NCBI RefSeq assembly: GCF_001899645.1
Contig: NZ_MKVV01000081.1
Span: forward strand, 1 to 64,000
Reading direction: 5' to 3'
DNA from: Pseudonocardia sp. 73-21
GTDB lineage: Bacteria; Actinomycetota; Actinomycetes; Mycobacteriales; Pseudonocardiaceae
DNA length: 64,000 nt
Shown here: piece after piece, positions 1,762 through 60,426 of the stretch
How positions within the stretch are numbered: the stretch's first letter is position 1
Layout of the letters: each line of letters opens with the position of its first letter
The notes under the pieces: generated by a model
What the model was told of the DNA's origin: nothing
The model's input: the letters and a program-made list of their open reading frames with translations, nothing else
The model's database searches: none
Made by a program: the position numbers and the translations under genes

Positions 1762-3155
1762 ACCCGCTGCGGTGTCCTCTCCGCCAGGCGGTCGGGCAGC
1801 CCGAGGAACACCACGAACAGCACCACCAGCAGCGCCGCCCGCCCCCAGACCCCGACGGCCACGGACTGCGCCGCCAGCCCGGCCGCGATGTCGGACGCGC
1901 CGGCGCCGGTCTTGAGCGCGTAGAACCAGCGGAAGATGCCGATGCCCATCACGGCGTCGACGATCAGGTAGCCGACGACCCAGCGCCACGGCACCGCGAG
2001 CAGCACGAAGAACGGCAGCAGCCACAACGTGTACTGCGGCGAGTGCACCTTGTGCAGCAGCAGGAACCCGCACAGCATGGCCGCGCTGACGGCGACCCAC
2101 GGGTAGACGCCCGAGCGCTTCCACCGCCACAGGCCCACCGCCGCCGCGAGGAGGAACGAGGCCACGACGAGCGTGGGCGAGAGCCAGTTGACCCAGTGCT
2201 GGAACGCGACGTTGTCGGGCTCGGAGTCGGGGCGGAAACCCCAGAACCAGATGGAGTTGGTGGTGAGGTCGACCTTGCGCAGCTCCTGGAACGTGAACGA
2301 CGCCCGCCAGCCCTGGTAGCCGGCCAGCGCGAACGGCAGGTTGACCAGCACGACCGTGACGGAGGCGGCCAGCGCCACCCGCACGGCTCCCCACCAGTGG
2401 AGCCGGCCCGGCCGCGACATCGTCAGCACGTAGAGCGCGAGCGGCAGGACGAACGCGCCCGGGTAGAGCTTGAACGCGAAGCCCAGGCCCAGCAGCACCG
2501 ACGCGAGCACGGCGCGATCGGCCAGCGGGCGGTCGGTGCGCCACCCGTTCATGACGAAGACGGCGCCCACCGCGGTGGCGACGACGGGCAGGTCCCAGTT
2601 GTGGAACGCGTAGAGCACCAGCGGCGGCCCGATCGCCCACAGCAGGGCCCGCCACCGTGCCAGCCGGCCCAGCATCCAGCCCGTGAGCAGCCCGAACGGG
2701 GCCATGAGCAGTGCCGAGTAGAGCAGGAACTCACCGTCGTTGTGGGCGAACAGCGCGCCCGCCCACATCAGCAGCCCGGTGAGCACCGGGTACTCGACGG
2801 TGCCGCCCTCGAGCACGCCGTCGGGGGTGATGGAGCCGGACACGAACGGGAAGACGTGCTTGTCGATGTCGCGGCCGAGCCACAGGTACTGGATGTCGGA
2901 GTAGCAGACGTCGCGGTCGACGCGGAGGATGTAGTCGGGCCCGCTGCGGCCCTGCGCGTCGAACTCGGGCCCGACGCACCGCGCCTTGTTGGCGTAGCCC
3001 AGCAGCAGGGTGAGCCCGGTGAGTACCACGATCGCCACCAGCATCAGCGCCGTGGGCGAGGAGCGGCGCCGGGGAGGGGGCGGCAGCGGGGGCGTGCCAT
3101 CGGCCTCGGGCGTCGCCGCCCGCGTCACGACCGACATCTCATGCCAGCCGCTCAC
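1758..3155 (-). CDS. GT87/DUF2029-like polyprenyl-phosphate-mannose-dependent membrane glycosyltransferase
   Basis: Multi-TM protein with YPVLTGLLMW and FKLYPGAFVLPLALY motifs; a homologous membrane protein lies near rpsF in mycobacteria. Confidence 0.7.
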   Translation of the reverse strand: MSGWHEMSVVTRAATPEADGTPPLPPPPRRRSSPTALMLVAIVVLTGLTLLLGYANKARCVGPEFDAQGRSGPDYILRVDRDVCYSDIQYLWLGRDIDKHVFPFVSGSITPDGVLEGGTVEYPVLTGLLMWAGALFAHNDGEFLLYSALLMAPFGLLTGWMLGRLARWRALLWAIGPPLVLYAFHNWDLPVVATAVGAVFVMNGWRTDRPLADRAVLASVLLGLGFAFKLYPGAFVLPLALYVLTMSRPGRLHWWGAVRVALAASVTVVLVNLPFALAGYQGWRASFTFQELRKVDLTTNSIWFWGFRPDSEPDNVAFQHWVNWLSPTLVVASFLLAAAVGLWRWKRSGVYPWVAVSAAMLCGFLLLHKVHSPQYTLWLLPFFVLLAVPWRWVVGYLIVDAVMGIGIFRWFYALKTGAGASDIAAGLAAQSVAVGVWGRAALLVVLFVVFLGLPDRLAERTPQRV

Positions 3156-3906
3156 GCAGGAAGGCGATGTCGGCGGCCTGGCCCTCGGCCGGCGTCTCGA
3201 CGACGACGGGTGCCCCGGCCGCGGCGCACACCGCGGCGAGCTCGTCGGGCGAGATGGTGCCCTTGCCGATGTTGGCGTGCCGGTCGCGGGTGGAGCCGAA
3301 CTCGTCGCGGGAGTCGTTGAGGTGCACCAGGTCGATGCGCCCGGTGATGGCCTTCGCCCGCTCGACGACGTCGACCAGCTCCAGGCCGGCGGCGAACGCG
3401 TGGCAGGTGTCGAGGCAGAACCCCACCCCGAACTCGCCGACGGCGTCCCACAGCCGGGCGAGCTGCTCGAAGCTGCGGGCCATCGCGTTCTCGCCGCCCG
3501 CGGTGTTCTCGATGAAGATCGGCACCGCGAAGCCGCCCTCGGCCTGCTGGCGCTCCACGAACTTGCGCCAGTTGTCGAAGCCCTTGGCGTCGTCCTCGCC
3601 CTGCGTGACGTGGCCGCCGTGCACGACGAGCCCGATGGCCCCGACCTCGGCGGCTACCTCCGCGTGCTGCACGACGATCTTTCGCGACGGGATGCGGATG
3701 CGGTTGTTGAGCGACGCCAGGTTCACCACGTAGGGGGAATGCACGACGACGGTGACGTCGCTGTCGCGGAGCTCCTGGGCCTGGGGGTGCGACGGCGGCT
3801 TCTTCCACCCCTGTGGATCGGACAGGAACATCTGGATGATGTCGGCGCCGCGTTCGGCCGCGGACACCACCGGATCGTCCTCCCGCACGTGGGCGCCGAT
3901 GAGCAT
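3139..3906 (-). CDS. nfo: deoxyribonuclease IV / AP endonuclease (xylose isomerase-like TIM barrel)
   Basis: MLIGAHV...FLSDPQGWK...VVHSPYVVNLAS...ENTAGGENAMARSFEQLARLWD...CLDTCHAFAAG...HLNDSRDEFGSTRDRHANIGKG. Confidence 0.9.
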   Translation of the reverse strand: MLIGAHVREDDPVVSAAERGADIIQMFLSDPQGWKKPPSHPQAQELRDSDVTVVVHSPYVVNLASLNNRIRIPSRKIVVQHAEVAAEVGAIGLVVHGGHVTQGEDDAKGFDNWRKFVERQQAEGGFAVPIFIENTAGGENAMARSFEQLARLWDAVGEFGVGFCLDTCHAFAAGLELVDVVERAKAITGRIDLVHLNDSRDEFGSTRDRHANIGKGTISPDELAAVCAAAGAPVVVETPAEGQAADIAFLRERLA

Positions 3907-4091
3907 GCCGCCAGCGTAGTGGCGGGCACCGACACTCCCGATCCCGTCCCCGCTCCGGCCGCCCGCCTGCGGGGCGAGGTGTTCCCGCTGGTAGCCTGGG
4001 CGCTTCGCGCACCGACCGGCGTCCTCCTGGATGCCGCTGTCGAACCCCTCAGCTCCACCGGGTGGTCCGATTCTGTCGGTGCGCGGTGAGA

Positions 4092-4149
4092 ACCTCCTGC
4101 CGCGGACACTCCGCGGCCGATTCGAGTCCATAGGAGGTGAGTGGTTCTC
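4092..4149 (+). promoter_or_regulatory. candidate rpsF 5' leader structure that could sequester the ribosome binding site
   Basis: acctcct (4092-4098) is complementary to aggaggt (4132-4138, the SD); it encloses CCGCGG-acact-CCGCGG (4100-4116). Confidence 0.45.
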
Positions 4150-4575
4150 ATGCGTCATTACGAGCTGATGGTCATCCTCGACCCCAGTCTGGACGAGCGC
4201 ACTGTGACGCCGTCACTGGAGCAGTTCCTCACCGTCGTCAAGAACGACGGTGGCACGGTCGAGAAGATCGAGGTGTGGGGCAAGCGTCGTCTTGCCTTCG
4301 AGATCCTCAAGCACGCCGAGGGGATCTACGCGGTCATCGAGGTCGCCTGCGAGCCGGCCACCATCTCGGAGCTGGACCGCCAGCTCGGGCTCAACGAGTC
4401 CGTGCTGCGCACCAAGGTCCTGCGCCGGGAGCCCAAGAAGGCCCGCGCCCAGAAGGCGGCCGCCCCGTCGTCGCCCCCCGCGTCCGCGCCCGCCGGCGCA
4501 CCGCGCACGGCCACGTCGGCCACGGCTGCGGTCGCCGCGGCGTCCGCTCCGGCCGCCGCACCGGCTGCCGGCTGA
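4150..4575 (+). CDS. rpsF: 30S ribosomal protein S6
   Basis: [18 protein letters not shown]...; followed by ssb and rpsR. Confidence 0.97.
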
Positions 4576-4584
4576 GTCGCGACG

Positions 4585-5106
4585 ATGGCCGGCGAAACTG
4601 TCATCACCGTGGTCGGCAACCTCACCGCCGACCCGGAGCTGCGGTTCACCCCGTCCGGGGCGGCGGTCGCCAACTTCACCGTGGCGGCCACCCCGCGCAC
4701 CTTCGACCGCCAGTCCGGCGAGTGGAAGGACGGCGAGGCCCTGTTCATGCGCTGCAACGTGTGGCGGCAGGCGGCGGAGAACGTCGCCGAGACGCTCACC
4801 CGCGGCATGCGTGTGATGGCCACGGGGCGGCTCAAGCAGCGGTCCTTCGAGACCCGCGAGGGTGAGAAGCGCACCGTCGTCGAGCTCGAGGTCGACGAGG
4901 TCGGCCCGTCCCTGAAGTACGCCACGGCCAAGGTCAACAAGGTCAGCCGCGGTGGCGGCGACTTCGGCGGCGGCGGGGGCGGCTTCGGCGGCGGGGGCGG
5001 CAATTCCAGCGCCTCCTCCTCGGGCGGAGCACCTGCCGACGACCCGTGGGGCTCCGCTCCCGCGGCCGGCAGCGGTCCCGCCGTCGACGACGAGCCTCCC
5101 TTCTAA
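4585..5106 (+). CDS. ssb: single-stranded DNA-binding protein
   Basis: [25 protein letters not shown]...; Gly-rich tail and acidic DDEPPF C-terminus. Confidence 0.97.
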
Positions 5107-5909: not shown

Positions 5910-6073
5910 TCATGTTCCGGGGTCGCTGGGTCACCCCTGCTCCCCGTTCGGGTGACACGCCGGAGGTGACGCCGGCGTCGCCGAGTGACCTTGTGGATGC
6001 GCTCGGTGGACAAGCGGTCCGGCGGTGCGCGACACGCCCGTGAAACCGTCCTCGGCGTGTCGGACGAGCAAAG

Positions 6074-6082
6074 TTGTCCACA
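6074..6082 (+). promoter_or_regulatory. DnaA-box-like TTGTCCACA upstream of dnaB
   Basis: Exact match to the actinobacterial consensus; near-matches at 6005-6013 (ggtggacaa) and 6129-6137 (ttgtcccca). Confidence 0.45.
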
Positions 6083-6330
6083 TCCCGAACCATGGTGCTG
6101 ACCAGCGGAAACGTCACGCAGGACGGGGTTGTCCCCATGCCGTCCACAGGTTGCTCCCACCCCTGTCCTGGGGCGGAGGTGCTCCGTCCCCAATCCGTCC
6201 CCAGGTCGGTGCACAGGACGGTTCGACAACGCCTCCGGCGGTCCCTAACGTCGCCGCGCGAGGCACGAGGACCCGGCCCGGGTGACATCGGTCGTTCACC
6301 GGGGCGTCGCTCCGAAGTGGCGCGAGCATA

Positions 6331-6346
6331 TCGAACCTCTGTTCGA
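6331..6346. promoter_or_regulatory. putative LexA/SOS box
   Basis: TCGAACctctGTTCGA, perfect palindrome (extends to TATCGAACctctGTTCGATA, 6329-6348) 28 nt upstream of the dnaB ATG. Confidence 0.7.
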
Positions 6347-6374
6347 TACACTGGCAAAGGGGGTGACGCAGAGT

Positions 6375-7838
6375 ATGACCCAATCTGATGTGCGCAGTGC
6401 GGATTCACGCAACGGCGATCCACGCAACGGCGATGGTCGCAACACCGACTTCGGGGCGCGTCCGCGCGCGGGCCGTCCGGTCGAGCAGGGCGGCGACAGC
6501 GGCGGAGGCGGCACGTTCGACCGCCAGCCGCCGCAGGACCTCACCGCCGAGCAGTCCGTGCTCGGCGGCATGCTGCTGAGCAAGGACGCCATCGCCGACG
6601 TCGTGGAGGTGCTCCACGCCGACGACTTCTACCGGCCGGCCCACCAGACGGTCTACGAGTGCATCCTCGATCTCTACAGCCGGGGTGAGCCCGCCGACGC
6701 CGTCACGGTCTCGGCGGAGCTGCAGCGTCGCGGTGATCTGATCCGCCTCGGCGGCGCCCCCTACCTGCACACGCTGATCGCCACGGTGCCCACCGCGGCC
6801 AACGCGGCCTACTACGCCGAGATCGTGGCCGAGAAGGCCATCCTGCGCCGCCTCGTGGAGGCCGGCACGCGCATCGTGCAGCTGGGCTACCACGGCGACA
6901 ACGGTGCCGAGGTCAACGACGTGGTCGACCGCGCCCAGGCCGCCATCTACGAGGTCACCGAACGCTCCACCACGGAGGACTACGTCGTCCTCGAGGAGCT
7001 GCTGCAGCCCACGATGGACGAGATCGACGCCATCGGCTCCCGCGGCGGTATGGCGCTGGGCGTGCCCACCGGCTTCCTCGACCTCGACACCGTCACCAAC
7101 GGCATGCACCCCGGCCAGATGATCGTCGTGGCCGCGCGACCCGGGCTCGGGAAGAGCACGCTGGGTCTGGATTTCGCCCGTTCCTGCTCCATCAAGCACG
7201 GCATGACCAGCGCGGTGTTCTCGCTGGAGATGAGCAAGTCCGAGATCGTCATGCGCCTGCTGTCGGCCGAGGCGAGCATCCGCCTGGGCGACATGCGTGC
7301 GGGCCGCATGAGCGACGAGGACTGGACGCGCATGGCAAGGCGGATGAGCGAGATCTCCGAGGCGCCGCTGTTCATCGACGACTCCCCCAACCTCACGCTG
7401 ATGGAGATCCGGGCCAAGGCGCGGCGGCTCAAGCAGCGCAACGACCTCAAGCTGATCATCCTCGACTACCTGCAGCTGATGACGTCGGGCCGCAAGGTCG
7501 AGTCCCGCCAGCAGGAGGTCTCGGAGTTCTCCCGCCAGATCAAGCTGCTGGCCAAGGAGCTCGAGGTGCCGGTGGTGGCGATGAGCCAGCTCAACCGCGG
7601 TCCCGAGCAGCGCACCGACAAGCGCCCGATGCTGTCGGACCTGCGTGAGTCGGGCTCCATCGAGCAGGACGCCGACATGGTGATCCTGCTGCACCGCCCC
7701 GACGCGTTCGAGCGCGACGACCCGCGCGCCGGCGAGGCCGACCTGATCCTGGCCAAGCACCGTAACGGCCCCACCGACACCATCGTCGTGGCGCACCAGC
7801 TGCACTACAGCCGCTTCGCCGACCTGGCTCACGGCTGA
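6375..7838 (+). CDS. dnaB: replicative DNA helicase DnaB, no intein visible
   Basis: RQPPQDLTAEQSVLGGMLLSKDAIADVVEVL...AARPGLGKSTLGLDFARS...LIILDYLQLM...SDLRESGSIEQDADMVI. Confidence 0.97.
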   Translation: MTQSDVRSADSRNGDPRNGDGRNTDFGARPRAGRPVEQGGDSGGGGTFDRQPPQDLTAEQSVLGGMLLSKDAIADVVEVLHADDFYRPAHQTVYECILDLYSRGEPADAVTVSAELQRRGDLIRLGGAPYLHTLIATVPTAANAAYYAEIVAEKAILRRLVEAGTRIVQLGYHGDNGAEVNDVVDRAQAAIYEVTERSTTEDYVVLEELLQPTMDEIDAIGSRGGMALGVPTGFLDLDTVTNGMHPGQMIVVAARPGLGKSTLGLDFARSCSIKHGMTSAVFSLEMSKSEIVMRLLSAEASIRLGDMRAGRMSDEDWTRMARRMSEISEAPLFIDDSPNLTLMEIRAKARRLKQRNDLKLIILDYLQLMTSGRKVESRQQEVSEFSRQIKLLAKELEVPVVAMSQLNRGPEQRTDKRPMLSDLRESGSIEQDADMVILLHRPDAFERDDPRAGEADLILAKHRNGPTDTIVVAHQLHYSRFADLAHG

Positions 7839-26866: not shown

Positions 26867-26932
26867 CGCGAGTCGGCGTCTTCCCGTGCGCGAGTCGGCG
26901 GTTTCGGGAGGGTGAGTCGGCGGTAGTTGTCC
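26867..26932 (+). repeat. three 22-bp tandem units, core (C/G)G(C/T)GAGTCGGCG
   Basis: cgcgagtcggcgtcttcccgtg / cgcgagtcggcggtttcgggag / ggtgagtcggcggtagttgtcc. Confidence 0.8.
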
Positions 26933-26955
26933 ACATCGGGTCGTGGTTGTCCACA
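26927..26955 (+). promoter_or_regulatory. two perfect DnaA-box-like TTGTCCACA sites, 20 bp apart
   Basis: 26927-26935 and 26947-26955, upstream of 27006 gene. Confidence 0.5.
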
Positions 26956-27005
26956 GGATCGCGAATGCTGCCCCGCGCGGCGACGCCAGCTGCCACCGTC
27001 GGGTC

Positions 27006-27962
27006 ATGTCGTCCAGAATCTTCGACGCGCACGGCACCTGCCTGCGCCGGGACGCGGTCCGGGAGCTCGGCGAGCACCGCGTGAGGTCCGCCGTGGAGTC
27101 CGGGGAGTTCGGCAGCCCGTTGCCCGGGGTGCTGGTCGATCCACGGCGCGCCGCCGAACCGGTCACGGTCATCGCGGCGGCCACGCGCTGGGCCGGTCCC
27201 GATGCCGTCGTGGCCGGCCGGAGCGCGGCGTTCCTCCACGGGTTCGACGCCGCCGACCCGACGCCCGTGCATCTCATGGTCCCCTACGGGAACCGCAGGC
27301 GGACGCGGCCTGGCGTCGCCGTCCACAACGGCCCGTCCCTGGCCGCAGACACGGTGTGGCTCGCGGGGCTCCCGGTGCTCGACGTCGAGCGCGTGGTGGT
27401 CGACGTGCTCTGCACCGCAGGCCCGGCGAGCGCCCTCGCCGTTGCCGACCAGGCGATGGCGGCGGTCGCCGCCGCGGCCCGGGAGGCCTTCCGGGCCCGT
27501 CTCGGCGAGCGGATCCGGCGACGGCCCGACCCGCGGGGAACCCGGATCGCCGCCACCCTGCTCGACCTCGCCACGGGACAGGCGGAGTCGCCCGCGGAGA
27601 GCTGGCTGCTGTGGGCGCTCGTCGATCTCGGCTTCCCGGTCCCCGAGGTCAACCACTGGGTGTGCAACCTCGACGGCACCCCGGTGTTCCGCGTCGATCT
27701 GTGCTGGCCCGCACTGCGGATCGCGGTGGAGTACTACGGCCATGTCGCCCACGTCGACCAGGTGGAGAAGGACGCCGTCCGGGTCGGGGAGCTCGAACGC
27801 CGTGGCTGGATCGTCGTCGTGGTCACCGCGGCCGACCTCGGTTCGGTCACGCGGATGGAGCGCGAGCTGCAGGAGGCGTTCCTGGCCCGCGGCCTCAACC
27901 TGCGTGACCGTGCCCGCAGGGCCCTGCGGCCGCGTCGCCACCGGGAGCGGTGGGTCGGGTGA
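27006..27962 (+). CDS. AbiEi-like N-terminal / DUF559 (VSR-like) protein
   Basis: FDAHGTCLRRDAVRELGEHRVRSAVESGEF...PGVLV; C-term RVDLCWPALRIAVEYYGHVAH...RRGWIVVVVTAADL. Confidence 0.75.
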   Translation: MSSRIFDAHGTCLRRDAVRELGEHRVRSAVESGEFGSPLPGVLVDPRRAAEPVTVIAAATRWAGPDAVVAGRSAAFLHGFDAADPTPVHLMVPYGNRRRTRPGVAVHNGPSLAADTVWLAGLPVLDVERVVVDVLCTAGPASALAVADQAMAAVAAAAREAFRARLGERIRRRPDPRGTRIAATLLDLATGQAESPAESWLLWALVDLGFPVPEVNHWVCNLDGTPVFRVDLCWPALRIAVEYYGHVAHVDQVEKDAVRVGELERRGWIVVVVTAADLGSVTRMERELQEAFLARGLNLRDRARRALRPRRHRERWVG

Positions 27963-59451: not shown

Positions 59452-60426
59452 ATGGCTGTTCTGACGATGGCGAAGGCGATCAACGACGGCCTGCGCGCCG
59501 CGATGGAGCGCGACCCCAAGGTCCTGGTCATGGGCGAGGACGTCGGCAAGCTCGGCGGCGTCTTCCGCGTCACCGACGGCCTGCAGAAGGACTTCGGCGA
59601 GCAGCGCGTGCTCGACACCCCGCTCGCCGAGAGCGGCATCATCGGCACCGCGGTCGGGCTCGCGATCCGCGGGTTCCGCCCGGTGTGCGAGATCCAGTTC
59701 GACGGCTTCGTGTTCCCCGGCTACGACCAGATCGTCTCCCAGCTCGCGAAGCTGCACTTCCGGTCGCAGGGTAAGGTGCCGATGCCGGTGGTCGTGCGCA
59801 TCCCGTTCGGCGGCGGCATCGGGGCCGTCGAGCACCACAGCGAGTCGCCCGAGGCGCTGTTCGCGCACGTCGCGGGGCTGAAGGTCGTGGCGTGCTCGAA
59901 CGCCGACGACGCCTACTGGATGATCCAGCAGGCCATCGCGAGCGACGACCCGGTGATCTTCTTCGAGCCCAAGCGGCGCTACTGGGACAAGGCCGAGGTC
60001 GACGTCTCGGCCACCCCGCCCCCGCTGCACACCTCCCGGCTCGTCCGGCCCGGCTCCGCGTTGACGCTGGTGGGCTACGGCCCCGTGCTCAAGACGTGCC
60101 TGGAGGCCGCCACCGCCGCGGCCGCCGACGGCACCGAGCTCGAGGTGATCGACCTGCGCACGCTCTCCCCGCTCGACCTCGACCCGGTGTTCGACTCGGT
60201 GCGCCGCACCGGCCGCCTCGTCGTGGTGGCCGAGGCGCCGTCGGAGGTGTCGGTGGCCGCCGAGGTGGCCGCCCGCGTGCAGGAGCAGTGCTTCCACTCG
60301 CTGGAGGCGCCGGTGCTGCGGGTCACGGGCTTCGACACCCCCTACCCGCCGTCGAAGTGCGAGGAGGACTTCCTCCCCGACCTCGACCGGGTGCTGGACG
60401 CCGTCGACCGTTCGCTGGGCTGGTGA
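59452..60426 (+). CDS. 2-oxoacid dehydrogenase E1 component beta
   Basis: VLVMGEDVGKLGGVFRVTDGLQKDFGEQRVLDTPLAESGIIGTAVGLAIRGFRPVCEIQFDGF. Confidence 0.95.
   Translation: MAVLTMAKAINDGLRAAMERDPKVLVMGEDVGKLGGVFRVTDGLQKDFGEQRVLDTPLAESGIIGTAVGLAIRGFRPVCEIQFDGFVFPGYDQIVSQLAKLHFRSQGKVPMPVVVRIPFGGGIGAVEHHSESPEALFAHVAGLKVVACSNADDAYWMIQQAIASDDPVIFFEPKRRYWDKAEVDVSATPPPLHTSRLVRPGSALTLVGYGPVLKTCLEAATAAAADGTELEVIDLRTLSPLDLDPVFDSVRRTGRLVVVAEAPSEVSVAAEVAARVQEQCFHSLEAPVLRVTGFDTPYPPSKCEEDFLPDLDRVLDAVDRSLGW

Follow-up and report, generated by a model that had tools for sequence, protein, structure and literature searches.

Sequence evidence for a conserved LexA operator in the dnaB promoter of Pseudonocardia sp. 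73-21

To our knowledge, the genes of replisome helicases are not usually counted among the SOS genes of Escherichia coli. In mycobacteria, imuA' and a radical SAM gene of the Rv2578c type are partner genes of the SOS response. Among the closest described systems is dnaB of Mycobacterium tuberculosis (Rv0058), for which a putative upstream SOS box was found with FIMO and overexpression was reported after mitomycin C (PMC8151990). Its induction is partly PafBC-dependent and persists when recA is deleted and pafBC is silenced (PMC8151990), so that LexA may be neither the only nor the main driver of dnaB in this species. For Streptomyces venezuelae, the LexA ChIP-seq paper gives the consensus tCGAAC-N4-GNNCGa; dnaB is unmentioned in its main text, in line with the missing box in Streptomyces. 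The literature search, which covered subscription papers (including mycobacterial LexA work) only in part, returned no paper with experimental LexA control of dnaB or with its conservation.

We analysed a 64,000-nt stretch of the Pseudonocardia sp. 73-21 genome (the window), in which a LexA box had been predicted directly upstream of dnaB. The original prediction also placed a damage-inducible dnaB outside the core actinobacterial SOS regulon, and this part stands only halfway: the silence of the S. venezuelae paper and the box-less Streptomyces speak for it, whereas the M. tuberculosis report (PMC8151990) speaks against it. The link between dnaB and the SOS response is therefore not wholly new, and what is added here is the breadth of its conservation and a promoter layout that resembles that of recA. 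The site is of the same kind, and upstream of the same gene, as the one in M. tuberculosis, and differs in this from the Streptomyces dnaB upstream regions examined, which are without a box.

In the window, dnaB is encoded on the forward strand (6375-7838) as a replicative DNA helicase of 487 aa without intein (TIGR00665, 534.6 bits for a cut-off of 385). It lies downstream of ssb and of rplI (ribosomal protein L9, TIGR00158; 5394-5843, forward strand), and is separated from the latter by a gap of 531 nt. The putative LexA operator, TCGAACCTCTGTTCGA (6331-6346, forward strand), is palindromic, agrees with TCGAACN4GTTCGA at 12 of 12 positions and is the sole perfect match to this word in the whole window; a site with one mismatch is also present at 60179. 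The predicted -10 hexamer of dnaB, TACACT (6347-6352, forward strand; TAnnnT type), abuts the operator, the two being contained in TATCGAACCTCTGTTCGATACACT (6329-6352), and is followed by the Shine-Dalgarno region AAAGGGGGTGA (6356-6366, forward strand). Exactly 28 nt separate the end of the box from the dnaB ATG (6375-6377). The original prediction was thus correct in its coordinates (6329-6348 for the box and its flanks), in the possible -10 adjoining the box, in the 28-nt distance and in the identity of the gene. From this arrangement we infer a transcript start near 6356-6359, which would leave some 16-19 nt of leader before the ATG. A longer dnaB reading frame with a GTG start (6282-7838), which would bring the box inside the gene, was considered and rejected: it is the ATG that has the conserved Shine-Dalgarno sequence, and the distance from box to ATG differs between congeners, so that the box is unlikely to be coding.

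The same word was then searched for in the whole 7.09-Mb genome. Its 14-mer core (CGAACN4GTTCG) occurs in 22 copies, compared with 0 for the reversed control word, and the 16-mer with at most one mismatch in 57 copies, compared with 10 for the control. Seven 16-mers are perfect, the dnaB site among them, and at least four of the six others lie upstream of SOS genes: perfect boxes precede imuA' (two boxes; NF058630), dnaE2 and the gene of an Rv2578c-type radical SAM protein, the remaining two copies being at C28:171932 and C50:83848. Looser boxes are located upstream of recA, lexA, ruvC (followed by apparent ruvA and ruvB genes) and a DUF222/HNH gene, as well as before a DUF2786 gene that is oriented divergently to uvrC, and another coincides with the 5' end of a DNA polymerase IV gene. 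LexA itself is encoded in the genome (TIGR00498, 240.6 bits for a cut-off of 111), with two operator-like sites upstream of its gene, TCAAACAGCCGTTCGA and TCGAACATGTGTTTGG (one and two mismatches, respectively). Operator word, LexA family protein and the partner genes recA, lexA, ruvC and dnaE2 are all shared with the actinobacterial LexA/SOS regulon. Since it is found at SOS genes and upstream of lexA, TCGAACN4GTTCGA is, as judged from this genomic context, the predicted mark of the SOS regulon of this organism. Two further observations concern individual copies of the word. In L021, the reading frame of an intein-bearing radical SAM protein of the Rv2578c type (3054-5063; NF038136) begins 9 nt downstream of a box whose 16-mer is free of mismatches. 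Contigs C7, C8, C57 and C41 of G000 carry one-mismatch boxes of the form TCGAACN4GTGCGA, three of the four contigs having theirs no more than about 215 nt from an end, and these are possibly copies of a repeated element that carries SOS boxes.

The original prediction had proposed conservation upstream of dnaB in related genomes as a check. We located dnaB in relatives and in genomes of the class and of the order as well as in named genomes, and scanned about 500 nt upstream of it after correction of the orientation. A box with at most one mismatch precedes dnaB in 17 of the 19 congeners (15 perfect) and in 31 of the 37 genomes across the family, and a box with at most two mismatches in all 13 genomes of genus g8 of family f8, so that this check turned out in favour of the site. 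Genus g8 is probably Mycobacterium, as the site recurs in named loci of Mycobacterium, Mycolicibacterium and Mycolicibacter. Mycobacterial loci with a name (L087, L088 and L091) have TCGAATGTACGTTCGG and similar boxes before dnaB; compared with the box studied here, mycobacterial boxes often show one or two mismatches and are at a greater distance from the coding sequence of dnaB. Boxes with at most one mismatch were also found in named Saccharomonospora, Amycolatopsis, Actinomycetospora and Frankia loci and in one of two Modestobacter loci, and a box with two mismatches in Blastococcus. Considering all 243 dnaB upstream regions, 37 contain a perfect box and 55 a box with at most one mismatch, for 0.0 and 0.0 expected by Markov resampling; these 243 regions count a few genomes twice, and the tallies per group (17/19, 31/37 and 13/13) are without duplicates. 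Across relatives, the four spacer bases vary and the half-sites are fixed, which fits the expectation for an operator. The box is nevertheless not universal: among the genomes examined, it is absent before dnaB in two congeners (G012 and G010, the latter with no more than a fragmentary dnaB match), in several genera of the same family, and in Streptomyces, Nocardia, Skermania, Smaragdicoccus, Saccharothrix, Saccharopolyspora and most other families.

The promoter layout is conserved together with the box. In all 17 box-bearing congeners, a TAnnnT hexamer (background frequency 0.9%) starts 0 or 1 nt past the box, and the order is box, TAnnnT, GGGGGTGA as Shine-Dalgarno sequence and ATG. The recA promoters of the same genomes are built in the same way, the LexA box coming first and TAnnnT immediately after it, in most genomes with 0-1 nt between them. 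The two promoters differ in other respects: the recA box of this genus deviates at its final base (GTTCGC as a rule, in some cases GTTCGG or GTTCGT) whereas the dnaB box is perfect, and DnaA-box-like words often stand just past the -10 of recA but far upstream of dnaB. In genera g96 and g100 of the same family, a CATAAT- or CATACT-like word is found just before the box instead. The operator is thus retained although its exact place with respect to the core promoter is not, which points to repression itself as the property under selection. The PafBC-type promoter motif is composed of TGTCR at a fixed distance from TAnnnT. No such motif was found upstream of dnaB in the window, which by this motif places the gene outside the PafBC regulon and distinguishes it from M. 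tuberculosis dnaB with its partly PafBC-dependent induction; in one congener (L034), a single match to the motif overlaps the LexA box itself.

Genome context, conservation and promoter layout together give strong support to a LexA operator at the dnaB promoter, and we regard 6331-6346 as very probably functional, with repression relieved by DNA damage. In undamaged cells, LexA dimers would occupy the 16-bp palindrome that immediately precedes the -10 and so hinder RNA polymerase in part. RecA filaments formed on damaged DNA would trigger LexA self-cleavage, the operator would empty and dnaB transcription would rise, and the extra DnaB could serve to reload or restart stalled forks beside RecA, RuvC, ImuA' and DnaE2. 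Repression is proposed to be partial rather than full because dnaB is presumed to be essential. The operator is conserved at dnaB both in Pseudonocardiaceae and in the genus that is probably Mycobacterium, and this suggests that more of an essential helicase is made upon DNA damage in these bacteria, and that this increase in DnaB is an old and useful part of their damage response. With the dnaB operator, it can also be tested directly whether the restart of replication is limited by the supply of helicase, which is relevant to the DNA damage tolerance of mycobacteria.

A second conserved feature of the dnaB upstream region is a cluster of DnaA boxes 235-370 nt before the gene (6005-6148). It contains a perfect DnaA box, TTGTCCACA (6074-6082, forward strand), 301 nt before the ATG, and a DnaA-box-like word, TTGTCCCCA (6129-6137, forward strand), 55 nt after it, a spacing kept in most congeners. 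Another word, CCGTCCACA (6140-6148, forward strand), has two mismatches, and many congeners carry TTGTCCACA, CTGTCCACA, TCGTCCACA or TGGTCCACA at this place; a last DnaA-box-like word is TTGTCCACC (6005-6013, reverse strand). At least two DnaA boxes with at most one mismatch precede dnaB in 19 of 19 congeners and in 62 of 80 named actinobacterial loci, and the observed density was reached by none of 150 permuted words. Conservation of the cluster extends further than that of the LexA box. DnaA-box clusters near oriC are found in Streptomyces. The cluster upstream of dnaB could regulate this gene or titrate DnaA, and its conservation suggests a second, replication-linked input on dnaB. We tentatively extend this to a two-input dnaB in much of Mycobacteriales, a possible arrangement that falls short of being probable: the DnaA cluster would tie DnaB supply (or DnaA titration) to initiation, and a recA-type LexA operator would raise dnaB on damage, so that the restart of forks would include a regulated step at the level of helicase dosage.

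Several other explanations of the palindrome were weighed. A chance match in a GC-rich genome is practically negligible: single-mismatch versions do arise randomly, as the 10 copies of the control word show, but a perfect match in the promoter, recurring at dnaB in dozens of species where about none is expected, refutes this explanation by conservation. We find it very improbable that the palindrome serves a repressor other than LexA, for instance one of the ArsR or TetR type, that recognises a half-site resembling that of LexA. ArsR-family factors do bind near one M. tuberculosis SOS box (PMC8151990); against this, the same word stands at recA, ruvC, imuA', dnaE2 and lexA in this genome and fits the LexA motif determined in S. 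venezuelae.

A point against a simple LexA reading is that an essential gene under a strong repressor requires either partial repression or a second promoter. LexA could bind the box with hardly any change in dnaB output, the gene being supplied from another promoter in the 531-nt gap, constitutive or linked to DnaA, and LexA merely trimming one promoter of several. The presumed essentiality of dnaB, the length of the gap, the conserved DnaA-box cluster within it and the M. tuberculosis induction that is partly PafBC-dependent and persists without RecA are all compatible with such an arrangement. However, the conserved promoter elements are those around the box, namely the -10 abutting it and the Shine-Dalgarno sequence after it (17/17), and an operator that is retained in two families or more is implied to be of selective advantage. 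We hold a box of little consequence for dnaB output to be unlikely, and prefer a LexA operator that is relieved by damage.

Words resembling DnaA boxes were also noted away from dnaB. In the recA promoters of relatives (L288-L316), a TTGTCCACA-like word (at most one mismatch) lies within 44 nt past the LexA box in 21 of 29 genomes; it often starts 6-9 nt after the box, sometimes with a second copy about 20 nt further, and a DnaA input on recA is possible. In the window, two perfect TTGTCCACA words 20 nt apart (26927-26955) are located near the start of a 339-aa ORF (26943-27962). Finally, the DnaB match of several relatives (e.g. G003, G006, G015, G018, G025 and G027) is split mid-frame in long ORFs of about 700-1200 aa, as expected for inteins.
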